This document shows, piece by piece, positions 39,630 through 55,763 of a DNA stretch of 55,763 nucleotides; position 1 is the stretch's first letter, and each line of letters opens with the position of its first letter. This DNA comes from an uncultured Bacteroidia bacterium (GTDB lineage Bacteria; Bacteroidota; Bacteroidia; Bacteroidales; Prolixibacteraceae). Position numbers and translations under genes: made by a program. The stretch covers positions 1-55,763 of the forward strand of contig CAIVMQ010000068.1 in NCBI GenBank assembly GCA_903907075.1, read 5' to 3'. The notes below the pieces were generated by a model that was not told where the DNA came from, did no database searches, and saw only the letters and a list, made by a program, of their open reading frames with translations.

Positions 39630-40400
39630 ATGAAAAGTACACTTTTAATTTTATTCGTTGCTCTATTTTTAGGTTTTACGAACACCGCTTCTGCAAAGAA
39701 GAAAGAGGGTAATAAGGGGAAAGAGGCTCTCAATACACTAACCGATCAAGAAAAAGCGCAGGGCTTTGTTCTGATGTTTGATGGCAAGACAACAGAAGGA
39801 TGGCGCAGCTACAACAAAACAACATTCCCCTCTGATTGGAGTGTTGAGGATGGAGCCTTGCGGTTAAAAGGTTCTGGCAATGGTGAGGCCGGTTCTGGAA
39901 ATGGAGGCGACCTGGTTTTTGGGAATCAGAAATTCTCGAATTTTGCATTAAGGCTCGAATGGAAGATCTCTGAAGGGGGTAATTCGGGTATTTTCTATTT
40001 GGCTCAGGAGGTTCCTGGAAAGGAGATTTGGAGAAATGCACCTGAGATGCAGGTTCTTGACAACGATCGTCATCCTGATGCGATGTTAGGTAAGGATGGT
40101 AACCGTCAGGCGGGTTCATTATATGATTTAATTCCTGCGAAGCCACAAAATGCGAAACCCGCAGGTGAGTGGAATAGCATTGAAATAATCTGTTATCAGG
40201 GCACTATTGTGCATAAGATGAATGGTGCCACAGTGCTGGAGTACCATCTTTGGACTCCAGAATGGAATGAACTGGTAAAACACTCAAAATTTCCTACCTA
40301 CAATCCCGATTGGGCAAATGTTGCCAAAGAAGGGGTTATCGGTTTTCAGGATCATGGTAACGACGTATGGTACCGTAATATTAGAATTCGTAAATTATAG
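39630..40400 (+). CDS. Exported DUF1080 protein, second paralogue
   Basis: 256-residue secreted protein with a signal peptide (about 1-22, ending ASA), a short Lys-rich linker, and a DUF1080 domain. The same landmarks as the copy at 23548 are present: LMFDGKTTEGW, NSGIFYLA, APEMQVLDN, RQAGSLYDL, EWNSIEII, HLWTPEWNEL, and a C-terminal GFQDHGNDVWYRNIRIRKL. The conserved core supports the 3-keto-glycoside hydrolase family. Stand-alone gene with a terminator 27 bases downstream. Confidence 0.92.
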   Translation: MKSTLLILFVALFLGFTNTASAKKKEGNKGKEALNTLTDQEKAQGFVLMFDGKTTEGWRSYNKTTFPSDWSVEDGALRLKGSGNGEAGSGNGGDLVFGNQKFSNFALRLEWKISEGGNSGIFYLAQEVPGKEIWRNAPEMQVLDNDRHPDAMLGKDGNRQAGSLYDLIPAKPQNAKPAGEWNSIEIICYQGTIVHKMNGATVLEYHLWTPEWNELVKHSKFPTYNPDWANVAKEGVIGFQDHGNDVWYRNIRIRKL

Positions 40401-43456: not shown

Positions 43457-44158
43457 ATGTTGGATTCAAGTCAATTCCATGAGAGTCATTTTAAGGGTGA
43501 AGATTCGATATTTGATCTTCTCAATCCGGAGGAATTGATAATACTTGAAAAGTCGCATGAAGTTAGGCGCTATAAAAAAAATGAGTTCATCTATAGGGAG
43601 GGTGAATATCCCGTTGGAATGCAATATTTAAAGGAGGGGATGGTTAAGCTGATCAAAGAAGGTATTGGAGGCCGCGATCAAATTATCCGTATGATACCCC
43701 GAAACGGATTAATCGGCTACCGATCTCTTATTGCAGGCGAGCCACATAATGGGACCACAATCGCTATTGAAGACTCCGAAATTATTACCATACCTAAAGA
43801 TATACTCTATAATGTGCTCTTGCGGAATTACGATTTCTCACTGGCTCTGCTAAAAGACCTTGCTTTGGAACTTGGTTTCTCACACCATCGCACGGTGAGC
43901 CTAACTCAAAAACATATCCGTGGACGGCTTGCAGAATCGATCTTATTGTTGATTGAAAAATATGGCTTTGAACACGACAATAAGACCCTCAGGGTTTACC
44001 TCCCGCGCGAAGATCTTGCTAACCTATCCAACATGACCTCCTCAAATGCAATCAGAACACTATCGATATTTGCCGGTGAAAAAGTAATCGCAATGGATGG
44101 CCGTAAAATAAAAGTGATCAATCTTGAGCAACTGGAGAAGATCAGTAAACAAGGATAG
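43457..44158 (+). CDS. Crp/Fnr family transcription regulator
   Basis: 233-residue regulator with an N-terminal cyclic-nucleotide-binding-type beta barrel (about 20-135: FIYREGEYPVGMQYLKEGMVKL), a long dimer helix and a C-terminal winged helix (about 160-225: PREDLANLSNMTSSNAIRTLSIFAGEKVIAMDGRKIKVIN). The protein contains no cysteine, so it cannot bind an Fe-S cluster as FNR does. Ligand unknown. It lies 264 bases upstream of the sugar cluster on the same strand and is a possible regulator of it; that link is inferred from position only. Confidence 0.92.
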   Translation: MLDSSQFHESHFKGEDSIFDLLNPEELIILEKSHEVRRYKKNEFIYREGEYPVGMQYLKEGMVKLIKEGIGGRDQIIRMIPRNGLIGYRSLIAGEPHNGTTIAIEDSEIITIPKDILYNVLLRNYDFSLALLKDLALELGFSHHRTVSLTQKHIRGRLAESILLLIEKYGFEHDNKTLRVYLPREDLANLSNMTSSNAIRTLSIFAGEKVIAMDGRKIKVINLEQLEKISKQG

Positions 44159-44422: not shown

Positions 44423-47146
44423 ATGAAAAAAATAAATCTATTTCCCAGAATGAAAAAACTAAATTGCAAAATTGCTGTACTCCTTATCAGTATGGTTGCT
44501 TTACTTACCTCTTTAAGCAGTAAAGCTGAAAATATATCCTCTTATAAGGTTACCACGATTTCTGACAATTGGAAAATGCAGGCGGCTGAAAAAATTGGAA
44601 AAATTGAAGATTCAATGATTTCAAAAATCGATTTCAATACTAAAACATGGTATGAGGCCGTAATCCCAGGAACAGTATTAGGCAGTTTGGCCTTAAAGCA
44701 TGTTATTGAAGATCCCACATTCGGGATCAATATGAAAAATGTAGATACCGTTCAATTCCAGAAGCCTTGGTGGTTTAGAACAACATTCAAAATCGATGGT
44801 GCCGACCTAGCTAAGACAATATCCCTTCATTTTAATGGCATTAATTACCGTGCTGACTTGTGGATCAATGGGCAAAAAGTTGTCGGAAACGATGTTTTTG
44901 CTGGCACATACCGCATGTTTACCTTTAATATTAATGCCTTTGTTCATCCTGGAGAGAATACGATGGCCTTAAAGCTTTCGCAATATGCATATGGTGAATA
45001 TTCACTTGGATTTTGCGACTGGAATCCAATTCCATCTGACCGCAGCATGGGAATTTTCAGAGAAGTCTTTTTGGAAATTAATGAGGGATTAAAAATTCGG
45101 AGCCCCTTTGTTTACTCAAATGTGGATACTTTAACCAAGAAGAATGCAAATTTATTTATTCAGGCTGAATTGGTAAATAGCACGGCTCATGCCATCGACG
45201 GTGTGCTTCGCGTAAATTATGAACTGGGTACAGTTGAGAAAAAAGTTAGTGTTAAAGCGGGTGAGACGTTGTCATACCGATTTACACCTGAGGAATATCC
45301 ACAACTAAAAGTTAAAAATGTTGAGCTTTGGTGGCCTAATGGAATGGGTAAGGCGAAGATGTATAACCTTAAAACTTCTTTTATTGCTGGGAATAAGGTT
45401 ATTGATCAGGTCGACAAGAAATATGGTATCCGGGAGATGCGTAGTTATTTGAACAAAGAAAAGAACAGAGCCTTCGAAATCAATGGCAAGTTTATCCTGA
45501 TCAAAGGTGGCGGATGGGCTGATGATATTTTTCTGCGTGACACCCGTAAATCTGTTGAGGCTCAGCTAAGGTATATCCGTCATATGAACCTAAATAGTAT
45601 TCGTTGCGAAGGGTTCTGGGGTAAAGATGAAAACCTTTTTGACCTCTGCGATGAGTACGGAATATTGATCATGATCGGATACAACTGCATCTGGGAATGG
45701 GAAGAATATTTGCATAAGACCTGTCATGAGAAATATGGCGGTGCGGTAAACGATGAGGATATTACATTGCTCTCAGAGTCGTGGAAGGATCAGATGCTTT
45801 GGTTGCGTAACCATCCAAGTATTTACTTGTGGATGCTAGGCAGCGATAAACTACCATGTCCGAAATTGGAGTTAAAATATGTTGAGCTATTTAAAAAATA
45901 CGATCCTTCACGGCCTTATGCAACCTCTTCGGGTGGTGCCGGAACAGAAGATAATAATGTCGTTGCAACGGTGCCGCTAGTGTCTGATATTAGTGGTCCG
46001 ACAGGTATGAAGATGATGGGTCCTTATGCCTGGACGCCTCCTCAATATTGGTTTACCGACACTAAACTTGGTGGTGCGTGGGGCTTTAATACGGAGACTT
46101 GTCCGGGTGCTGCCATTCCTCCCTTGGCCTCCCTAAAAAAGATGCTTCCTGTAGCTGCCTTGTGGCCAATAGATAAAACGTATTGGGAATATCATACCGG
46201 ACGAAACGAGTTTACTTCTCTCGATCGGGATATCAATGCTATTAATAGTCGCTATGGTAGCTCGTCGAGTGTTGAGGAGTTCTCGTTTAAAGCACAGCTG
46301 AATAATTACGAGATTATGCGTCCTCAGTTTGAGGCGTTTGTGGCTCATAAACCAAAGAGTACCGGATTGGTACAATGGCAACTTAACTCTGCCTGGCCTA
46401 AGATGATCTGGCAGCTTTACGACACTTATCTGCAGCCTAATGGGTCGTTTTATGGGGTTAAGAAAGGTTGTGCTCCGCTTCATGCGATTTACCGATATGG
46501 TTTCAATGATATTTATTTGGCAAATGAAGATTTAATAGAAGCGAAAGGGCTAACTGTTAAACTTCGGATATTTGATCTTAACTCGAAAGAGGTTTTTGCA
46601 GATCAATGGAAGGGCGATGTGAAGTCAAATATTTCGAAGTTTATCTATAAGATTCCTGAGATTAAAAATCTTACAGCTGTTTGGTTTCTTGATCTACGGA
46701 TCTACGACAAGAATAACAAAGAAGTTGATAATAGCATCTATTGGTTATCGGAGAAAAAGGATGTTTTAGATTATGAAGCTTATAAGAAACTGTCGTGGCC
46801 ATTCTATACACCTACCAGTCAATTTGCCGACTATACGGCATTAGATAAACTTCCCAAAGTAAAATTGGGTTATGATTATGCCTATTCTCAAGAGGGTAAG
46901 TTTGGTAAGATTCGTTTAAAGGTGAAAAATTCATCCCCTACGATTGCCTTCTTTATGTTTCTTGATGTGTTAAATCCAGCTACGAAGCTGCCGATCTTAC
47001 CAATCTATTGGAACGATAATTATGTAACCTTATTACCCGGTGAGGAACGCACCTACGAGGCAAGTTATTTTCTCTCTGATTCCAATGGAGCTAAGCCACT
47101 TCTTGAAGTTAAAGGATGGAATGTGGATAAGCAAATTATAAAATAA
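44423..47146 (+). CDS. Exported GH2 glycosidase, exo-beta-D-glucosaminidase-like
   Basis: 907-residue precursor with a signal peptide (about 1-36; an internal ATG at 44450 could also be the start), an N-terminal jelly roll (about 75-225), an Ig-like domain, the TIM barrel (about 340-640) and C-terminal beta-sandwiches. The catalytic residues match the CsxA exo-beta-glucosaminidase subgroup, where Asp replaces the usual GH2 acid/base Glu: Asp475 in WMLGSDKLP and the nucleophile Glu558 in GAWGFNTETCPG. The expected role is trimming terminal beta-linked glucosamine or a related amino sugar outside the cytoplasm. It heads the cluster and is followed by ROK kinase after 19 bases. Substrate is not proven by sequence. 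Confidence 0.88.
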   Translation: MKKINLFPRMKKLNCKIAVLLISMVALLTSLSSKAENISSYKVTTISDNWKMQAAEKIGKIEDSMISKIDFNTKTWYEAVIPGTVLGSLALKHVIEDPTFGINMKNVDTVQFQKPWWFRTTFKIDGADLAKTISLHFNGINYRADLWINGQKVVGNDVFAGTYRMFTFNINAFVHPGENTMALKLSQYAYGEYSLGFCDWNPIPSDRSMGIFREVFLEINEGLKIRSPFVYSNVDTLTKKNANLFIQAELVNSTAHAIDGVLRVNYELGTVEKKVSVKAGETLSYRFTPEEYPQLKVKNVELWWPNGMGKAKMYNLKTSFIAGNKVIDQVDKKYGIREMRSYLNKEKNRAFEINGKFILIKGGGWADDIFLRDTRKSVEAQLRYIRHMNLNSIRCEGFWGKDENLFDLCDEYGILIMIGYNCIWEWEEYLHKTCHEKYGGAVNDEDITLLSESWKDQMLWLRNHPSIYLWMLGSDKLPCPKLELKYVELFKKYDPSRPYATSSGGAGTEDNNVVATVPLVSDISGPTGMKMMGPYAWTPPQYWFTDTKLGGAWGFNTETCPGAAIPPLASLKKMLPVAALWPIDKTYWEYHTGRNEFTSLDRDINAINSRYGSSSSVEEFSFKAQLNNYEIMRPQFEAFVAHKPKSTGLVQWQLNSAWPKMIWQLYDTYLQPNGSFYGVKKGCAPLHAIYRYGFNDIYLANEDLIEAKGLTVKLRIFDLNSKEVFADQWKGDVKSNISKFIYKIPEIKNLTAVWFLDLRIYDKNNKEVDNSIYWLSEKKDVLDYEAYKKLSWPFYTPTSQFADYTALDKLPKVKLGYDYAYSQEGKFGKIRLKVKNSSPTIAFFMFLDVLNPATKLPILPIYWNDNYVTLLPGEERTYEASYFLSDSNGAKPLLEVKGWNVDKQIIK

Positions 47147-47165
47147 TTAATAATACACTAGTACG

Positions 47166-48089
47166 ATGAGATATGCTGCAGGGATTGATTTAGGGGGCAC
47201 ATTTGTGAAGTTCGCCCTTGTCTCAGAAGATGGTAAGATTTCCTATAAAGATAAATTAGAGATTGGATCAAAGGCAACCCGCGAGGATATCCTGGATACC
47301 CTTAAGGAGGCGATTCAAAAAATAAAGCTATTTGCTGATCAGCAAGGAAACAAGTTATCCGGTATTGGCATTGGTTCACCAGGGATTATCTACGATGGCG
47401 TGGTAATTGGTGGTGCTGAGAACCTAAATGGCTGGTCCAATGTCCCTCTTGGCGAGATATTCTCTAACGAGTTTAATCTTCCTGTTTTTGCTGATAATGA
47501 TGCCAATGTGATGGGATTAGGTGAGACCGTATTTGGTGCTGCCCAAAATTGTACTGACGTCATATTTATAACGGTAGGAACAGGTATTGGTGGTGCAATC
47601 GTTATGAATGGTCAGCTTTATGGTGGGTATAAAAATAGGGGCGCTGAACTAGGCCATTTTACCGTTGATCATAAAGGAGTTGATTGTAATTGTGGTGGTA
47701 GAGGTTGTCTCGAAGCTTATGCTTCTACATCAGCCTTAGTAAAACGATATGCCGAACTCTCAGGACTTTCTGAGGAGCTTGTGAATGGGATACTAATTGT
47801 GGAGAAATTTAAGGCAGGTGAGGCTGCTGCGGTGCAATGTATGGAAGAACATACCGATTACCTTGGTCATGGCATCGCCTCATTTGTGAATACGTTTGCC
47901 CCTCAAAAGGTGGTAATTGGAGGTGGAATTTCGGAGGCCGGTCAATTTTATATCGATATGATCAAGAAGTCTACTTTCAGCTATGCAATGCCAGATTGCT
48001 CAGTATTTACTGATGTTATTGGGGCTACCTTAGGCAATAATGCAGGGTGCATGGGAGCTGCTTCATTAGTCTTTAAGAATACTAACTAA
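47166..48089 (+). CDS. ROK family sugar kinase
   Basis: 307-residue cytosolic kinase. The ATP-binding start AAGIDLGGTFVKFALV, GIGSPG, DNDANVMGLGE with the catalytic Asp, GTGIGGAIV, and the zinc-binding ROK signature CNCGGRGCLEAYAS are all present, and there is no DNA-binding N-terminus, so it is an enzyme rather than a ROK repressor. Glucokinase-like, but ROK kinases also use amino sugars. Position between the glycosidase and a FucP-like transporter suggests it phosphorylates the imported sugar. Confidence 0.93.
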   Translation: MRYAAGIDLGGTFVKFALVSEDGKISYKDKLEIGSKATREDILDTLKEAIQKIKLFADQQGNKLSGIGIGSPGIIYDGVVIGGAENLNGWSNVPLGEIFSNEFNLPVFADNDANVMGLGETVFGAAQNCTDVIFITVGTGIGGAIVMNGQLYGGYKNRGAELGHFTVDHKGVDCNCGGRGCLEAYASTSALVKRYAELSGLSEELVNGILIVEKFKAGEAAAVQCMEEHTDYLGHGIASFVNTFAPQKVVIGGGISEAGQFYIDMIKKSTFSYAMPDCSVFTDVIGATLGNNAGCMGAASLVFKNTN

Positions 48090-48099
48090 ATCTAACTAA

Positions 48100-49356
48100 A
48101 TGAAAAAAAATTATTTCCTCGTCGTCCTAATCATGTTTGTGTTTTTTGTTATTTCATTTCTTACGAACATCTTAGGGGCTCTGAACGACAAAGTCTCGCA
48201 AAGCTTTACATTGAATGAAACCATGGCGGGATTACTGCCTTTTGCCTTTTTTATTGCCTATGGGGTGATGTCTATCCCATTTGGGTTTTTAGTGGAGAAA
48301 TATGGAGAGAAGAAAATGATTATCTCTGCCTTTTTGCTCGCCTTTGCGGGTGCTTTAGGGTTTGCTCAATTCCCAACCTTTAACGTGTTTATTGTCTCGC
48401 TATTTACCATAGGTTCTGGAATGGCAGCCTTGCAAGTCGTTATCAATCCGTTATTACGGGTTTCGGGTGGGGAAGTAAACTATGCGTTTAACTCTGTTAT
48501 GGGACAGCTGGTATTCGGATTAGCCTCCTTTATAAGTCCTCAGATGTATACCTACTTAGTAACCAATATCGATGCGGGAAATGTGAGTAAACCATTTATT
48601 GGGTTGTTGACCAGTTTAGTCCCTAAAGTTATGTCGTGGGTTTCTGTCTATTGGGTCTTTGCTCTAATTGCAATCCTTATGGTCGCGCTGGTTTCTTTTG
48701 TTCGTTTTCCTAAAGTTGACTTGCAGGATGATGAAAAAGTAGGTTCAAAAGATAGCTACCTCGAATTGTTTAAGAATAAATATGTGATCCTTTATTTCCT
48801 GGGTATCTTCGCCTATGTGGGATCCGAACAAGGGATATCGTATTGGATGTCTAAGTTCTTGAAGATATACCACGATGTAAATCCTGATGTGGCAGGTGCC
48901 GATGCCGTATCGTACTTCTGGGGACTTATGACAATCGGAGGGATGTTAGGACTTGTGCTTATGAAGCTTTATGACAGCAAACCAATCTTACGGTGGTTTA
49001 CCATTCTGGCAATGTGTTGCGTGGCGATTGGGTTGTTCGCAGATGTTCAGACTTCATTATGGGCATTCCCAATGTCGGGCTTCTTCCTGTCGGTAATGTT
49101 TCCGGTGATCGTCTCTTTGGGACTAAACTCAGTTCCAAAGCATCATGGTTCATTTGCGGGAATTCTAATGACTGGAATTGCTGGTGGCGCTATCGTTCAG
49201 CTTTTAATCGGAGCGATCAGCGATGCCGTTTCGCTTAGAGTTGGAATGCTATTTATCTTCGTTACGCTGGGCTATATCTTGAGCCTTAGCTTCTGGGCCA
49301 AACCATTGGTGAACAATCAAACGTTTACCTTACGCAGTTTATTTAGCAAAAACTAA
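48100..49356 (+). CDS. FucP-like MFS sugar transporter
   Basis: 418-residue, 12-helix major facilitator of the fucose/glucose permease type. Signature elements are FFIAYGVMSIPFGFLVEKYGEKK in the first half and the GSGMAALQVVINPLLRVSG stretch typical of FucP relatives. These are usually proton symporters for a monosaccharide. It follows the ROK kinase by 10 bases, fitting uptake of the sugar freed by the exported GH2 enzyme. Confidence 0.92.
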   Translation: MKKNYFLVVLIMFVFFVISFLTNILGALNDKVSQSFTLNETMAGLLPFAFFIAYGVMSIPFGFLVEKYGEKKMIISAFLLAFAGALGFAQFPTFNVFIVSLFTIGSGMAALQVVINPLLRVSGGEVNYAFNSVMGQLVFGLASFISPQMYTYLVTNIDAGNVSKPFIGLLTSLVPKVMSWVSVYWVFALIAILMVALVSFVRFPKVDLQDDEKVGSKDSYLELFKNKYVILYFLGIFAYVGSEQGISYWMSKFLKIYHDVNPDVAGADAVSYFWGLMTIGGMLGLVLMKLYDSKPILRWFTILAMCCVAIGLFADVQTSLWAFPMSGFFLSVMFPVIVSLGLNSVPKHHGSFAGILMTGIAGGAIVQLLIGAISDAVSLRVGMLFIFVTLGYILSLSFWAKPLVNNQTFTLRSLFSKN

Positions 49357-49419
49357 ACTTATTTTTAAGTTCAAGAAAGATTTAAAGTCTAAGTATATAA
49401 AATTTAATACCCTATTATT

Positions 49420-50697
49420 ATGACAAAGTTAGCAGTTCTTGGAGGATCTCCTGTGCGTGACACCAAAGTTAATCCTTGGCCTAAATGGCCTGTTTGGGAC
49501 AAGAATGAAGAAAAAGCCCTGATTGAAGTTTTAAACAGTGGAGTATGGTCCTACAATGGACCTAAAGAGACCGAGTTTAACAAGAATTTCGCCAAAGAGA
49601 TGGGTGCTAAATATGCAATATCAGCAGCTAATGGTACGGTAACATTACAAATGGCTCTAGAAGCTTGTGGCATCGGCATAGGTGACGAAGTAATTCTTCC
49701 TGGCCTTACCTGGCAAGCTACTGCAGCTACAATTATTGATGTTAATGCCACCCCAATCTTGGTGGATGTTTGCGAAGATACCTGGTGTATCGATCCTAAG
49801 GAGATTGAAAAGGCAATTACTCCGCGTACTAAAGCCATTATTCCTGTCCATTTATATGGCAGTTTTGCCGATATGGACGAGGTAATGCGTATTGCTAAAA
49901 AACATAACCTCTTTGTTATTGAAGATTGTGCGCATAAGCATGGTGGTGAATGGAATGGCCAAAAAGCAGGAACAATCGGTGATATTGGAAGCTTTAGCTA
50001 TCAGTTATCAAAACATCTTACTGCCGGTGAAGGGGGTACTGTAACCACAAATAATTTCGAGCTTTACGAAAAGCTGGATGCCTTGCGAAACTGTGGCCGT
50101 CGACCTGAACCTGCAAGTGCAGCACAAGGAGATAAAGGTGAAGGACTCTACTTTGATGCAGGAAATTTCTGCCAGTCTGGTAACTTCCGAATCACCGAAT
50201 TTCAAGCTGCGATTTTAATTGAAGGTCTTAAACGGTTGCCAGAACAAAATCGTGTAAGAGATGAGAACGGTATTTACTTAAACTCACTCATAACTTCAAT
50301 ACCTGGAATTACACCAATCAGAAGAGATGCTCGCGAAACGAAAGAAGCGTATTTTAATTTCTCTTTTAGATATAATCAAGCAGATTTTAAAGGACTTCCA
50401 GTGGCGAAATTCAGAGCAGCTCTGACTGCCGAGATTGGTATTGAAGTAGTGGCCAGTTATATCCCATTAAACAAATGCTCGCTGTATCAGCCTCATACCA
50501 AGCCTGCACGTCATAAACTAAACCCGGAATATTGGGCAGCAATCGACCCAACACGTTTTGACCTTCCGGTTTGTGATAAGATCCACTTTGAAGCGTCAGC
50601 CTGTATTCATCATAAAGTTTTAATGGGCACTAAAGCCGACATGGATCTTTTGGCTACAGCTATCCGTAAGGTTTACGACAACGCAGAAAGTCTTTAA
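49420..50697 (+). CDS. DegT/DnrJ/EryC1/StrS family PLP aminotransferase
   Basis: 425-residue fold-type I aminotransferase of the group acting on keto-sugars and keto-cyclitols. The Schiff-base lysine is Lys198 in YQLSKHLTAGEGG and the PLP-nitrogen-binding Asp is Asp169 in VIEDCAHKHG. The N-terminal LAVLGGSPVR is typical of the scyllo-inosose/StsC-like branch. In biosynthesis such enzymes add an amino group to a keto-sugar. Next to a glycosidase, transporter and kinase, the reverse (removing an amino group) is equally possible. Gap to the oxidoreductase is 30 bases. Confidence 0.92.
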   Translation: MTKLAVLGGSPVRDTKVNPWPKWPVWDKNEEKALIEVLNSGVWSYNGPKETEFNKNFAKEMGAKYAISAANGTVTLQMALEACGIGIGDEVILPGLTWQATAATIIDVNATPILVDVCEDTWCIDPKEIEKAITPRTKAIIPVHLYGSFADMDEVMRIAKKHNLFVIEDCAHKHGGEWNGQKAGTIGDIGSFSYQLSKHLTAGEGGTVTTNNFELYEKLDALRNCGRRPEPASAAQGDKGEGLYFDAGNFCQSGNFRITEFQAAILIEGLKRLPEQNRVRDENGIYLNSLITSIPGITPIRRDARETKEAYFNFSFRYNQADFKGLPVAKFRAALTAEIGIEVVASYIPLNKCSLYQPHTKPARHKLNPEYWAAIDPTRFDLPVCDKIHFEASACIHHKVLMGTKADMDLLATAIRKVYDNAESL

Positions 50698-50727
50698 TTC
50701 CGTCTCTTTTTAGTTCGAAACTGGAGT

Positions 50728-51732
50728 ATGAAAAAAATAAGAATCGCACTTATTGGTGCAGGGTATATCAATCATTATCATGCACGTGGATTGCAGCTTT
50801 TGCCTAATGTTGAGATTGTATCTGTGGTTGCAGCTCGCATCGAGACGGCTCGTGCTTTTGCCGATAAATATAATATTGCAGAGGCTACTACGGATGTCAC
50901 CACCCTATATGATCGTAAAGATCTTGATGCGGTAGTGATCTCGACTCCGAATAAGTTTCACGCTCCATATACCATCGAATTTCTCAACCATGGCAAGGAT
51001 GTCTTTCTTGAAAAGCCAATGGCGATGAATGCCGGTGAAGGTGTTGAGATTAAAAAAGTCTCAGATGCTACCAGGCAGCTCGTGATGGTGGGGCATATGT
51101 GGCGATTCGACAACGATGTCAACTTTGTTAAGCAGACCGTTGACTCAGGTCAGATGGGCAAGATTGTTAAAACAAAGGGATATGCGATTCATGAAAATTG
51201 GGGTCCTGCCGGATGGTTCGCTCAGAAAGAGCTTGCTGGCGGGGGTGCTCTAGCCGATATGGGCGTGCATGCGATCGATACTGCACGGTACATTATCGGC
51301 GATCCACTACCCAAAAAAGTATATGCAAAGATTGGAACTCATTATGGGAGCTACGACGTTGATGATTCTGGCATTATCCTAATCTCATGGGATAATGGCG
51401 CTGAGTCGTTGATAGAAAGTGGATGGTGGCAGCCTCATATGGATGGCCCCGAAGCCGCAACCGGCATCTATGGAACAAAAGGGTATGCGAACGTTTTTCC
51501 AACCTATCTAAAATACAAAGTTGACAATACGCCAGGAAAGTTTGAGCCTAAACTGCCTGTTCGAACTGAACATTGCGACCCAACGATGTATAACCGTCAA
51601 ATGGAATATTTTATCGACTGCATTGTTACACGTAAGCAGCCGGTTCCGGGTCTTGAAGTTGGACAAATTATCCTGGATATCGTAGACGCAGCCTATAAAT
51701 CAGCACAGACTGGTGAAGTGGTGAATTTGTAA
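50728..51732 (+). CDS. Gfo/Idh/MocA family NAD(P)-dependent oxidoreductase
   Basis: 334-residue cytosolic oxidoreductase. It has a Rossmann domain (ALIGAGYINHYHA, residues 7-19), the catalytic Lys96 in FLEKPMAM, and the C-terminal catalytic set in GGGALADMGVHAIDTARYIIG (Asp177, His181, Asp184). The family oxidises or reduces sugars and cyclitols at C2, C3 or other positions. No signal peptide or Tat motif. Paired with the DegT aminotransferase it could interconvert keto- and hydroxy-sugar, analogous to NtdC beside NtdA. Confidence 0.93.
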   Translation: MKKIRIALIGAGYINHYHARGLQLLPNVEIVSVVAARIETARAFADKYNIAEATTDVTTLYDRKDLDAVVISTPNKFHAPYTIEFLNHGKDVFLEKPMAMNAGEGVEIKKVSDATRQLVMVGHMWRFDNDVNFVKQTVDSGQMGKIVKTKGYAIHENWGPAGWFAQKELAGGGALADMGVHAIDTARYIIGDPLPKKVYAKIGTHYGSYDVDDSGIILISWDNGAESLIESGWWQPHMDGPEAATGIYGTKGYANVFPTYLKYKVDNTPGKFEPKLPVRTEHCDPTMYNRQMEYFIDCIVTRKQPVPGLEVGQIILDIVDAAYKSAQTGEVVNL

Positions 51733-51854
51733 TTGACAGCATTAAATAGGCCTAACCAGCCCAACTAAACAAACTAGCCCTTGACCGAATGTAAAACGAA
51801 AGGGTTGCATTTTAAGTGAAATTTGTTGCTAAATTGTGAGAAATCACGAGTAAC

Positions 51855-51882
51855 AATGCGCCTGCTTTAAAGTAGGCGCATT
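51855..51882 (+). terminator. Strong hairpin between the oxidoreductase and second GH2 genes
   Basis: AATGCGCCTGC (51855-51865) pairs with GTAGGCGCATT (51872-51882), 11 bp with one G-T pair around TTTAAA. The downstream run has few Ts (CGATCAATTTT), so it may be a weak terminator, processing site or attenuator. Just upstream, GTGA-GAAA-TCAC (51836-51847) forms a small dyad. Confidence 0.5.
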
Positions 51883-51932
51883 CGATCAATTTTCAACTGA
51901 CTTGTTCGCATTGACCTTTAATTGTTTTACTT

Positions 51933-54599
51933 ATGAACTTAAAGAAAGTTAGGCTTTATGGGATGTTTCTGTCGCTTGCCCTATTGATTTTTGGGTTTAA
52001 AACTCCAGCTCCTTCCGTTTTAATCCTGAATGCGAAATGGGAACTTCAATCTTCAGCGAAGCTAACAGCTAAGGGGACTGAAATTTCCACGAATGCATTT
52101 GTCCCAAATAAATGGGTCTCTGCAACCGTGCCAACTACTGTATTGGCAGCCTTGGTAGAGCAGAAAGTTTTTCCTGATCCGTATTACGGAGAAAATCTTA
52201 AAGCTATTCCGGGCTATCGTTCAGGCAGCTGGCTTTCGATGCCCAAGGATAGTCCCTTTCGTTCATCGTGGTGGTACCGAAAAACCTTTGATATGCCCGC
52301 TGACTGGCAAGGTCAATTTCTTACCCTTCATCTCAATGGGATAAATCTCAAGGCCAATGTGTGGCTTAACGGTCATCTTATTGCCGATACGGCTAGCGTA
52401 GTGGGGATGTTTCGCCGGTTCGAATTTGAACTTAATGCTTTTGCAAAGCCGGGTGCAGAGAATACCCTGGCCATCGAAGTTTTTGGTCCTGGAAGAATTC
52501 CTGACCTCAAATATTACACCAAGCAAGTGGAGGCAACAACAGGATGGGACGATCATAATCCACAACCACCCGATCTGAATATGGGCGTCTGGCAAGATGT
52601 CTTTATCTCTGCCAATGGACCCGTATCTATTCGACATCCTTATGTGGTGACCAAGCTCGATCTGCCCTCGTTAGATCAGGCTCATCTCACCATTAGTGCC
52701 AAGCTGATCAATAAAAGCGATCAGTCGGTCACAGGTGATCTGGTTGGTGTAATTGAAAACATACAAATTAAGAAGCAGGTTGTGTTGGGTGCCCATGAAT
52801 CAAAACAGGTTCAGTTTACCCCCTCCGACTTTGCGCAACTAAACATCAAGAATCCACGTGTTTGGTGGCCTCACAATACAGGGAAACAAGAGCTTTATTC
52901 ATTAAATCTCTCTTTTATAACCGTTAATGGATGTTCGGCAGAAGAGAAGGTGCGCTTTGGTATCCGAGAAGTGAATACTTACATCAATAAAGATGGATGG
53001 CGTGGTTACCAGGTAAATGGTAAAAATATCTTAATTCGGGGTGGTGCCTGGATGACCAGCGATATGATGCTTCGTCTTTCGACTCATCGCTATGCGGGAT
53101 TGATTAAATATGCCAAGGAGGCTGGACTTAATGCCCTTCGATCTGAAGGATTCTCTATCCGTGAGACAGAAGATTTCTACAATCTTTGTGATGAGAATGG
53201 CATCTTAGTGATCCAACAGTTTTTTGGCCGTAATCTTCCCGATGAGAAATTAGCGGTGCAGATTATCGAAGATATGTTGCTTCGAATCCGAAACCATCCA
53301 AGCTTGATCCATTTCTTAGGTCATGATGAGACCTTTCCAACAGCGAATTTAGATAAAAATTATAAGGAGCTAATCGCCAAATACACCCCCCAACGGACCT
53401 ATCAGCCGCATTCGGGTGCCTTCGATATCAACGATCGATTTAAGACTGGTGGAACCAGAACTGGCACGTTGGAACTTTGGAGTTATGCTACGCCAGGCCA
53501 CTATTATACCCATAAGGAAGATGGTGCTTGGGGCTTTGCTCAGTCAGGAGGGATCGGTGGTGTTTTTGCTCCGTATGAGAGCATGCGTAAGATGATACCA
53601 GAAAAAGATTTATGGCCTATAAACAATGAGGATTTCTCCTTTCATACCGTCCTTCAAGGGACCGATTACTTTACTTCTGGCCTTGAGGCTTTAGAAAACC
53701 GGTATGGGAAAGCTACGGGAATAGTTGATTTTTGCACCAAGGGTATGGCCCTGAATTACGAGAGTGCACGGGGTATGTTTGAAGCTTATGCACGAAATAA
53801 ATATGAGGCACTGGGTATCACAACCTGGAAATACGATGCCGCTTGGCCGGCTGTCTATAGCTGGCAATATGTCGATTGGTATCTCAATGTTGGAGGTGCC
53901 TACTATGGAGCAAAAAAAGCCTGCGAACCATTGCATGTTCAATTCTCCTATGATGATAACTCCATTTACGTGGTTAATAGCCGGTATCAAGGTTATAAAG
54001 ACTTAAAAGTTACAGCTAAGATCATCAATTTTGACCTGAGTGAGAGATTTTCAAAATCGGCAGTTGTAGCTATTGGAGCGGATGGGAAAACGGAAGCTTT
54101 TAAACTGAATTTTCCTTCTGGCTTAAGTAAAACACATTTTCTTCGATTAAAATTAGAGGATCAAGCGGGCAAGATAATCTCTGAAAATTTATACTGGTTA
54201 TCAACACAGCCAGATATTCAAGGCTCGAGAGTAGATACGAAGAGTCCGCGTGGTTTTGACTGGGATCTCTTTGTCGCAAAACCTAAGTCGGTGGCTGACT
54301 TTACAGATCTTGAAAAACTTCCGAAAGTTAAGCTAGAACGATCGATGACGGTAAGTCAGGTTGGATCAGAGCGAGTCGGTAGCGTGAAAATCTCAAATCC
54401 CAGCAATTCATTGGCTTTTATGGTTCACCTAGCTTTAACAAAAGGCGAAGGTGGCGATGAGATAACTCCTGCCTACTGGGATGACAATTATTTCTCCTTG
54501 TTTCCAGGAGAATCTAAGGTTATTAAAGTGAAATACTCGGCTGATGATGAAGGAACCAAATCGACTCAACTAAAAGTAGAGGGATGGAATAGCTTATAA
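51933..54599 (+). CDS. Exported GH2-like protein with altered catalytic site
   Basis: 888-residue precursor: signal peptide (about 1-25) and the same domain order as the GH2 protein at 44423, with clear similarity along the length (HLNGINLKANVWLNG, VWWPHNTGKQELYSLNL, KFGIRE-like RFGIREVNTYIN, WWQ-free barrel, C-terminal YWDDNYFSLFPGE). The acid/base Asp is kept (Asp465 in FLGHDETFP). At the nucleophile site GAWGFNTETC of the first protein aligns with GAWGFAQSGG, so Ser538 replaces the catalytic Glu. The protein is either non-hydrolytic, for example glycan-binding, or uses another residue or mechanism. The frame is intact, so it is not a pseudogene. Confidence 0.87.
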   Translation: MNLKKVRLYGMFLSLALLIFGFKTPAPSVLILNAKWELQSSAKLTAKGTEISTNAFVPNKWVSATVPTTVLAALVEQKVFPDPYYGENLKAIPGYRSGSWLSMPKDSPFRSSWWYRKTFDMPADWQGQFLTLHLNGINLKANVWLNGHLIADTASVVGMFRRFEFELNAFAKPGAENTLAIEVFGPGRIPDLKYYTKQVEATTGWDDHNPQPPDLNMGVWQDVFISANGPVSIRHPYVVTKLDLPSLDQAHLTISAKLINKSDQSVTGDLVGVIENIQIKKQVVLGAHESKQVQFTPSDFAQLNIKNPRVWWPHNTGKQELYSLNLSFITVNGCSAEEKVRFGIREVNTYINKDGWRGYQVNGKNILIRGGAWMTSDMMLRLSTHRYAGLIKYAKEAGLNALRSEGFSIRETEDFYNLCDENGILVIQQFFGRNLPDEKLAVQIIEDMLLRIRNHPSLIHFLGHDETFPTANLDKNYKELIAKYTPQRTYQPHSGAFDINDRFKTGGTRTGTLELWSYATPGHYYTHKEDGAWGFAQSGGIGGVFAPYESMRKMIPEKDLWPINNEDFSFHTVLQGTDYFTSGLEALENRYGKATGIVDFCTKGMALNYESARGMFEAYARNKYEALGITTWKYDAAWPAVYSWQYVDWYLNVGGAYYGAKKACEPLHVQFSYDDNSIYVVNSRYQGYKDLKVTAKIINFDLSERFSKSAVVAIGADGKTEAFKLNFPSGLSKTHFLRLKLEDQAGKIISENLYWLSTQPDIQGSRVDTKSPRGFDWDLFVAKPKSVADFTDLEKLPKVKLERSMTVSQVGSERVGSVKISNPSNSLAFMVHLALTKGEGGDEITPAYWDDNYFSLFPGESKVIKVKYSADDEGTKSTQLKVEGWNSL

Positions 54600-54612
54600 A
54601 AATTATCTGGTA

Positions 54613-55763
54613 ATGAGAGTTGAAAATAAACAATCGAATTATTCACAATGGCTTTATATTGTATTTCCTGCAATTGCCATGCTATTAGGCTGGGGATTGA
54701 GAGGATTTATTGGAGGTGGACCATTTGGAGCGATGATTCCAGGCGCAATGGTTGCCATAAGTATTTCGCTATTATTGGAGCTCCCTCTACCCGTGGCTGC
54801 TATGTTTACAGTTTTTAGTGTTGTTGGCATTGGCTTAGGAGGGGAGATGACATATGGACAGACTCTTGGATTCTTAAGACATCCAGAAACAGTTTGGTGG
54901 GGCACAATTGGCACAACGGTAAAAGGGGGAGTATGGGGTTTGCTTGGGGGTATTATCATGGGATTAGGTCTTATCTACAACAGGCTGCCTAAACGGGTGA
55001 TCATTTATACGTTACTCTTATTACTCTTTGGAATGCTAATTGGCTTCAAATTAATTAATCAGCCGATGGTGATCTATTTCTCCGATCCTGCTAAGCCTCG
55101 TCCCGAATCGTGGGGTGCCTTACTGGTTGGATCCTTGGTGCTATTGCTCTATCTTCGAACGAAGATCGAGATGGCAAGCTTTAAGCTGATCAAACGATTT
55201 GCTCTTTGGGGTCTTCTTGGAGGAGCACTTGGATTTGGACTTGGCGGATATTGGATGGTCTTAGGTAGTCAACTTCCCAAGGACGGTGTATTTCAAAATT
55301 GGTGGAAAATGATGGAATTTACTTTCGGACTTTTCCTTGGAGCAGCCTATGGACGTGCGGCATGGCTTAGTCGTCATGACCTTGATCCAGAGACGAAAAT
55401 AAATAACCCATACCCTGACTCGAAACTTAAAACAACCGCAATAGAGCTTTTGGGATCCTTGATTATTGGGTTTTTAATCTTTTGGTTTTTTTCCGCATGG
55501 CTTGAACCAATGGTGGACGCCGGAAAGATGAACCATGATTTCTCAATGGTCAACTTGACTGATTTGGCAAAGTTGCTCTCCAACTACGCTTTTTATGGAC
55601 TGATCATGATCATTGCTGTCATCCGATATCCTAATCTTGCTTGGCAGATTGCAATAACATTAACGTTTTCTCATACTATTATTGATTTGATGGATAGCGT
55701 CTATCCTGATTCCCCAAGTAATACACTTCTAACTCCGAGTTTTTTCTTTGTATTTTCTTCTTC
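54613..55763 (+). CDS. Polytopic membrane protein, C-terminus cut by window end
   Basis: ATG at 54613, 13 bases after the second GH2 gene, opens a frame that runs off the window (383 codons visible). It encodes about nine or ten membrane segments with many Gly-rich helices, including LLGWGLRGFIGGGPFGAMIPGAMVA, VVGIGLGGEMTYGQTLGFLRHPET, GVWGLLGGIIMGLGLIY and LLGGALGFGLGGYWMVLG. I do not recognise a named family. The arrangement of repeated glycine motifs hints at an internal repeat. Position suggests a transport or membrane-modifying role linked to the sugar cluster. Confidence 0.8.
   Translation, partial: MRVENKQSNYSQWLYIVFPAIAMLLGWGLRGFIGGGPFGAMIPGAMVAISISLLLELPLPVAAMFTVFSVVGIGLGGEMTYGQTLGFLRHPETVWWGTIGTTVKGGVWGLLGGIIMGLGLIYNRLPKRVIIYTLLLLLFGMLIGFKLINQPMVIYFSDPAKPRPESWGALLVGSLVLLLYLRTKIEMASFKLIKRFALWGLLGGALGFGLGGYWMVLGSQLPKDGVFQNWWKMMEFTFGLFLGAAYGRAAWLSRHDLDPETKINNPYPDSKLKTTAIELLGSLIIGFLIFWFFSAWLEPMVDAGKMNHDFSMVNLTDLAKLLSNYAFYGLIMIIAVIRYPNLAWQIAITLTFSHTIIDLMDSVYPDSPSNTLLTPSFFFVFSS

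Follow-up and report, generated by a model that had tools for sequence, protein, structure and literature searches.

We analyzed a cluster of seven genes at the end of contig CAIVMQ010000068.1 from an uncultured Prolixibacteraceae bacterium; the window is the whole stretch of DNA that was analyzed, with a length of 55763 bases. At the center of the cluster, a DegT-family aminotransferase and a Gfo/Idh/MocA oxidoreductase (Gfo/Idh below) are encoded next to each other, and together with a glucosaminidase (GH2a) and a sugar transporter they are the conserved core of a module that recurs in Bacteroidales and Flavobacteriaceae. Our preferred reading, held tentatively and with a little less than even confidence, is that this is a catabolic amino-sugar module in which the DegT–Gfo/Idh pair replaces an amine on a ring carbon with a hydroxyl group. 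The genes of the cluster are as follows.

44423..47146, plus strand: GH2a, predicted exported exo-beta-D-glucosaminidase of the GH2_16 type, 907 residues, signal-peptide-like N-terminus (Pfam Ig_GlcNase 89.7 bits; CsxA 2vzs 475 bits)
47166..48089, plus strand: ROK sugar kinase, glucokinase-like, 307 residues (Pfam ROK 253.6 bits)
48100..49356, plus strand: predicted MFS sugar importer of the GluP/FucP/NagP group, 418 residues (NCBIfam gluP 112, fucP 95, and NagP 67 bits, all under the cut-off)
49420..50697, plus strand: DegT-family aminotransferase, 425 residues (Pfam DegT 311 bits)
50728..51732, plus strand: Gfo/Idh/MocA oxidoreductase without signal peptide, 334 residues (Pfam)
51933..54599, plus strand: GH2b, an accessory GH2 paralog lacking the catalytic nucleophile, 888 residues, export-signal-like N-terminus (CsxA 332 bits)
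54613..55761 (open end), plus strand: accessory polytopic membrane protein of no known family, truncated where the contig stops (468 residues in relatives)

The open reading frame listing and the Pfam and NCBIfam scans confirmed the observation on which the original prediction was based, namely seven genes of the families it named, all on the plus strand from position 44423 to the window end and mostly with small gaps (19, 10, 63, 30, 200, and 13 bases in cluster order), with the seventh gene remaining without a family. As the window spans the whole contig, and both stop at the same point inside the seventh gene, the cluster is cut. The interpretation attached to this observation was only partly supported, as detailed below.

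Conservation of the module

Relatives were collected by scanning the genome_contigs collection (84,980 species) with strict peptide patterns, which yielded 79 loci (designated L) and does not permit conclusions on absence elsewhere. With our cut of at least 69% DegT identity, 68 of the 79 loci constitute the ortholog set; L122–L131 (10 loci with other DegT proteins) and L132 (only a 73-residue DegT end) were left out. The 68 loci are not independent of each other, as many stem from Arenibacter or from one Prolixibacteraceae genus. GH2a was found within five genes upstream of DegT in all 54 loci that have at least 4.5 kb of upstream sequence, and a sugar transporter was likewise present in 54/54, being SSS/SGLT-like in 36 cases and of the MFS type in 18, never both together. 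Gfo/Idh lies downstream in 53 of the 57 loci with at least 4 kb on that side. It is these counts that define the core, and they answer positively the check for gene co-conservation that the original prediction had proposed. In control loci with other DegT proteins, GH2a was detected in 0/10 (L122–L131) and, in paralog loci, in 0/6 (L048–L053), several of these loci being short; in view of this difference, the association of GH2a with DegT is not due to chance. The other genes of the cluster are accessory, with ROK orthologs in 24, GH2b in 6, and the membrane gene in 11 of the 68 loci.

Within the genus, 13 of 17 other genomes contain a DegT ortholog at 84–98% identity, and no ortholog at this level was found in the remaining four (G001, G003, G007, and G017); one genome from another family has an ortholog at 76%. 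The carriers belong to the Prolixibacteraceae, other Bacteroidales, and the Flavobacteriaceae (Arenibacter, Zobellia, Kriegella, Pricia, Euzebyella, Salegentibacter, and others), plus one metagenome-assembled genome titled Chlorobiota. Even sampling of the phylum, with 295 further genomes, gave zero matches at E <= 1e-150.

The predicted glucosaminidase GH2a

GH2a aligns to the GH2_16 enzyme CsxA over residues 61–905, and the residues equivalent to E394, S468, D469, and E541 of CsxA are kept in 58/58 aligned GH2a proteins (those of more than 800 residues, 57 from the loci plus that of the window). PMC12243196 describes two marks of GH2_16 beta-glucosaminidases, namely an SD motif at the acid/base position, where NE is usual, and a Glu substituted for a His, and Glu394 of CsxA is described to bind the C2 amine in PMC6566704. 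GH2a carries these marks, with SD at the acid/base position, Glu394 at the C2/C3 position, and the nucleophile Glu541, each in 58/58. Given that all four hallmark residues are kept, the most likely product of GH2a is glucosamine whose C2 amine is free, and as these residues read the C2 amine, a purely 3-amino sugar is disfavored. GH2a thus resembles CsxA by homology and by these residues, but its orthologs in SSS-type loci have no export signal. In the literature searched, which was open-access only and therefore makes for a weak absence, we found no report of a glucosaminidase coupled to an aminotransferase.

The DegT–Gfo/Idh pair

Comparison of DegT with the PDB gave the 2-deoxy-scyllo-inosose aminotransferases RbmB and BtrS at 305–307 bits, the next structure at 187, and NtdA at 110 bits, and a profile search gave the same order (333–349, 209, and 124 bits). 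DegT is about 43% identical to BtrS and RbmB over 381–402 aligned residues. These are its best solved relatives, but they come from antibiotic clusters and the window DegT does not; no 2-deoxy-scyllo-inosose synthase was found among the seven cluster genes using Pfam. In a tree of 44 proteins, DegT is sister to a group of BtrS, RbmB, a Sodalis protein, and a Streptomyces protein with support of 94/94, and it separates from ArnB and WecE. The gene of the Sodalis member has a 2-deoxy-scyllo-inosose synthase gene in its vicinity. A MosB-like reference, so called because of a MosA-like neighbor, is 38.8% identical to DegT over 343 residues and falls outside the sister pair, although a grouping of DegT with this protein was not rejected (approximately unbiased test, p 0.099). 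Because of long branches in the tree, the placement of DegT with the 2-deoxy-scyllo-inosose aminotransferases is of moderate strength.

The nearest relatives of Gfo/Idh are glycoside 3-dehydrogenases and an inositol dehydrogenase. Its profile matched DgpA1 (140 bits), the myo-inositol 2-dehydrogenase 3cea (128 bits), and DgpA (127.5 bits) in the PDB, the best NCBIfam model was IolG (160 bits, cut-off 355), and identities amount to 32% with Escherichia coli YcjS, 35% with its Priestia relative, and 34% with DgpA1. Despite 30–35% identity over about 325 residues to the D-glucoside 3-dehydrogenase YcjS and the C-glycoside 3-oxidase DgpA, the window protein lies in a clade of its own, and whereas ycjS sits with an epimerase and a phosphorylase, the partner here is an aminotransferase. 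As members of the Gfo/Idh family act on various sugar carbons and on inositol, the carbon acted on cannot be read from the sequence.

The combined action of a dehydrogenase and an aminotransferase has precedents, one of which includes GenD2, presumably a Gfo/Idh protein. In gentamicin biosynthesis, GenS2 and GenD2 are described to aminate C3'', and in vitro they also work in reverse, deaminating kanamycin B and tobramycin with 2-oxoglutarate and NAD(P)H (PMC4340712), which gives substance to the earlier idea that such a pair could run backwards. According to this description, an NAD(P)-linked dehydrogenase and a pyridoxal-phosphate-dependent aminotransferase act in turn on one ring carbon, as proposed here, but in antibiotic biosynthesis and on C3'' of a pseudotrisaccharide; the likeness to the window pair is one of the described reaction. 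The rhizopine (mos/moc) system offers a comparable pair, in that the aminotransferase MosB and the inositol dehydrogenase IolG are described to make scyllo-inosamine from myo-inositol in vitro (PMC6668481); as mentioned, the MosB-like reference stands outside the sister pair of DegT. Due to these precedents, the chemistry of a dehydrogenase–aminotransferase pair can be regarded as established.

Two forms of the module

The two carrier types go along with different forms of GH2a. In MFS-type loci, all 18 uncut GH2a proteins have a hydrophobic, export-like N-terminal segment, often with a lipobox-like Cys, whereas such a segment is found in 0/36 SSS-type loci, where the protein starts at the mature domain. 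The segments were recognized by simple hydropathy without a signal-peptide program and with mechanically assigned start codons (TTG in L082, L092, and L103). From this distribution, it follows that the GH2a cutting site and the carrier type go together. The SSS carrier of L088, the one carrier tested, is nearest to vSGLT (258 bits), then to SGLT1 and SGLT2, and well above other SSS types. SusC/SusD-like genes, identified by similarity to one SusC/SusD pair, occur in 32/36 SSS-type versus 0/23 MFS-type loci, with the window contig ending early. These genes speak for the transport and catabolic setting that the original prediction had assumed.

The MFS form thus seems to cut outside the cell and to import a monosaccharide, and the SSS form seems to import a small glycoside and to cut it inside. 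Identities of SSS-type proteins to those of the window are 70–77% for DegT and 54–68% for Gfo/Idh, but only 40–47% for GH2a. As DegT and Gfo/Idh are more alike than GH2a across the two forms, this pattern suggests that the reaction in the cytosol stays the same while the glycosides vary.

Proposed pathway and alternatives

In the preferred catabolic reading, the exo-beta-glucosaminidase would free a sugar with an unacylated C2 amine, acting extracellularly in loci like that of the window and in the cytosol where the carrier is of the SSS type, and the MFS (GluP/FucP-like) or SSS (SGLT-like) carrier would bring this sugar, or a glycoside of it, into the cytosol. There, DegT would move a ring amine onto a keto acid, leaving a keto-sugar whose ketone would be reduced to a hydroxyl by Gfo/Idh, and where a ROK protein is present, this glucokinase-like enzyme would phosphorylate the glucose-like product. 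Computation shows which genes are present, how they are conserved, which glucosaminidase residues are kept, and to which families and subfamilies the proteins are related; the direction of the pair, the amine-bearing carbon, the free or phosphorylated state of the substrate, and the step at which the kinase acts are what we infer. Since the locus holds importers and glycosidases, the deaminating direction appears likelier, and the catabolic direction of the module is in this respect supported, though unproven.

In NCBIfam, the ROK protein scored 218 bits with ROK glucokinase, under the cut-off of 260, versus 111 bits with GlcNAc kinase, and in the PDB, it matched the glucokinase 2qm1 (179 bits); this glucokinase-like score fits a neutral hexose product and would also allow glucosamine. 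A same-strand ROK ortholog is present in 24/68 loci and a HAD phosphatase in 19/68, with both in none (some loci being short), and no HAD phosphatase was found among the seven window genes using Pfam. The earlier statement that a kinase replaces the phosphatase is thus only half correct. After Gfo/Idh, the HAD phosphatase gene is found in Arenibacter and some others (e.g., L088:15034-15678), and a ROK kinase gene in Kriegella aquimaris and a Salegentibacter (e.g., L097:12267-13265).

A more specific version, which we regard as unlikely, is a NagB-independent glucosamine route, in which DegT would transaminate the C2 amine of free glucosamine or of its 6-phosphate, Gfo/Idh would reduce the 2-keto-sugar to glucose or mannose, and ROK would phosphorylate it. 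If this were true, nitrogen would pass to an amino acid rather than to ammonia. The original prediction had noted that no GlmS, NagA, or NagB lies nearby, and Pfam and NCBIfam scans indeed detected none of them among the cluster genes, but NagB is encoded elsewhere in the genome. The argument that NagB is lacking and the pathway hence runs in reverse was thus rejected. Another DegT gene is found on the opposite strand some 1.5 kb away from the NagB gene of the genome (G000:C12:25788-28718), and a close pair of this kind is found in several members of the genus.

Several observations weigh against the catabolic reading. The NagB of the genome matches its family model with 403 bits, over the cut-off, and NagB-family matches over the cut-off were found in 33 of the 34 other carriers searched (34 of the 68 loci), the best matches lying in frames of about 640–680 residues in 28 cases and being simple NagB proteins in 5, so that ordinary use of glucosamine does not depend on the pair. 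A ROK ortholog was not seen in 44/68 loci, some of which are cut short, the HAD phosphatase in 19/68 fits catabolism poorly, and 4/57 loci (L067, L077, L104, and L119) have no recognized Gfo/Idh. The cited characterized relatives of the pair (GenD2/GenS2, and IolG with MosB) mainly add amines. Finally, the best NCBIfam model for DegT is the nucleotide-sugar enzyme PseC (191 bits, cut-off 423.5), and the second model for Gfo/Idh is UDP-GlcNAc 3-dehydrogenase (138 bits, cut-off 450).

If glucosamine takes the kinase and NagB route, the pair could instead act on what glucosamine was attached to in the glycoside, an aminocyclitol or a 3-amino sugar. The NagB-family enzymes in the genome and the carriers are in line with this option, as are the nearest relatives of DegT, the inosose aminotransferases, and the partly inositol-dehydrogenase-like Gfo/Idh, and the non-exported GH2a of SSS loci would leave both halves inside the cell. 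To our knowledge, no such glycoside is a common aquatic substrate, and we consider this option doubtful. An explanation of similarly low probability is that the pair is biosynthetic and oxidizes and aminates a sugar or inositol as GenD2/GenS2 do, with the HAD protein completing an NtdABC-like trio in Flavobacteriaceae. The aminating direction in which, as described, the characterized relatives mainly work argues for it, and the same-strand phosphatase of 19/68 loci recalls NtdB and a biosynthetic function; yet the neighbors are importers, glycosidases, SusC/SusD, and phosphodiesterase and phosphatase proteins with export-like N-termini, it is not obvious what purpose a cytosolic glucosaminidase would serve there, and 24/68 loci carry the ROK kinase without HAD.

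The degradation of kanosamine or another 3-amino-hexose by reversed Ntd chemistry, which is close to what was originally envisaged, would involve the same reaction types, and the identity of 32–35% between Gfo/Idh and the glycoside 3-dehydrogenase YcjS, its Priestia relative, and DgpA1 could point in this direction. The system shares the DegT and Gfo/Idh types with NtdA/NtdB/NtdC of Bacillus, and the 19 sister loci with HAD phosphatase extend the parallel. However, the window has a distant DegT, a kinase for the phosphatase, and an additional importer and glucosaminidase, the comparison resting on NtdA. With scores to NtdA of 110 versus 305–307 bits, and 124 versus 333–349 bits in the profile search, the NtdA parallel was abandoned and membership of DegT in an NtdAC/kanosamine system rejected, and the residues of GH2a read the C2 amine and point to glucosamine rather than to kanosamine as the sugar. 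We thus rate this explanation as quite improbable. Many DegT and Gfo/Idh pairs make cell-surface nucleotide sugars, and the least probable explanation, to which we attach very little weight, is that this pair does so as well and is located here by accident. PseC and UDP-GlcNAc 3-dehydrogenase are among the best NCBIfam models of the two proteins, but both matches are far below the cut-off; moreover, DegT stands apart from ArnB and WecE, no glycosyltransferase or nucleotidyltransferase was found among the seven window genes with Pfam and NCBIfam, and GH2a accompanies DegT in 54/54 loci. The firm clustering with surface nucleotide-sugar enzymes that the original prediction named as contrary evidence was not observed in the tree for DegT; for Gfo/Idh, which forms its own clade, the tree speaks neither for nor against it. 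On the basis of the family scans and the DegT tree, such a cluster is disfavored. One neighbor in L066 appears GT2-like by eye, and many single neighbors of the loci are unclassified.

Accessory genes and neighbors

GH2b was confirmed as a second GH2 protein with an export-like N-terminus, but it is probably not an ordinary glycosidase. At the position of the CsxA nucleophile E541, it has a Ser, and E394 is kept, in 7/7 orthologs; HDE is found where CsxA has GSD, with a Glu at the acid/base position. L083_12, labeled GH2b at 23% identity, was not counted as it is not an ortholog; it has a Glu at the acid/base position and no Glu at that of the nucleophile. The nucleophile Glu is described as invariant across the GH2 subfamilies compared in PMC12243196. 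Because it is lost in 7/7, GH2b is probably a non-hydrolytic glucosamine-binding protein or works by another mechanism. Some close relatives, among them L034 and L035, do not have GH2b.

For the membrane protein, Pfam and NCBIfam gave no match, the full-length ortholog was also without a Pfam match, and a fold search against the PDB with a model of pLDDT 82 found nothing at E <= 0.001. An ortholog is encoded at L034:7084-8490, and a distant paralog (20–22% identity) is present in L037, L068, and L077. In relatives, the order after this gene is GH3, a metallo-beta-lactamase-fold protein (a weak match, below the Pfam cut-off), GH3, and a beta-helix protein.

Directly upstream of the cluster lies one further gene.

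43457..44158, plus strand: Crp/Fnr-type regulator (Pfam cNMP_binding and HTH_Crp_2)

It also precedes GH2a in L034, L035, L036, L039, L042, and L043, and was seen there only among genus members; it is a possible regulator of the cluster. A promoter and terminator scan was no better than shuffled sequences (23 vs. 30.4 and 11 vs. 10.0). About 4 kb upstream of the cluster, at 39630-40400, there is a DUF1080 gene (3-keto-disaccharide hydrolase family), which is found at the same position in the relatives L055, L056, and L059.

Glycerophosphodiester phosphodiesterase-like proteins are encoded in 28/68 loci (22 SSS and 6 MFS; e.g., L088:11339-12157 and L069:13717-14577), nearly all with an export-like N-terminus, and those of MFS loci are just 31–40% identical to that of Arenibacter. 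The recurrence of such divergent proteins hints at a phosphodiester-containing substrate. A purple-acid-phosphatase-like protein is present in 11 loci (that of L077 being a 27% match), and GH92-like proteins (alpha-mannosidase family) are found on either strand in 13/68, four of them Pfam-checked. Because of these phosphodiesterase-, phosphatase-, and GH92-like neighbors, our guess is that the natural substrate might be a phosphorylated, mannose-bearing glycan with glucosamine.

In some Bacteroidales-type loci (L087:6449-12541, L090:13715-18307, L104, and L118), genes for a GSU2086-family protein, a heptose-kinase-like PfkB-HAD fusion, and a second ROK kinase come after the module; L087, the one such locus that was family-scanned, also has a GmhA-like isomerase. 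Another recurrent set, seen in relatives and haloarchaeal plasmids (L048–L051, L145:8001-13110, and L148:7001-13475), contains one or two DegT proteins of the same broad group near ceramidase-like proteins and Gfo/Idh or a class III aminotransferase, with only L048_7 being Pfam-checked among the relatives. This set may be another catabolic module.

Implications

If the pair deaminates in vivo, Prolixibacteraceae and genera of the Flavobacteriaceae such as Arenibacter and Zobellia would be obtaining nutrients by chemistry known from antibiotic biosynthesis, run in the opposite direction. This would provide a function for inosose-aminotransferase-like proteins outside antibiotic producers and would point to an overlooked pool of amino sugars. 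The swapped parts of the module, namely two carrier families, an exported or cytosolic glucosaminidase, and a kinase or phosphatase, would then predict what is imported by these bacteria and in which form.

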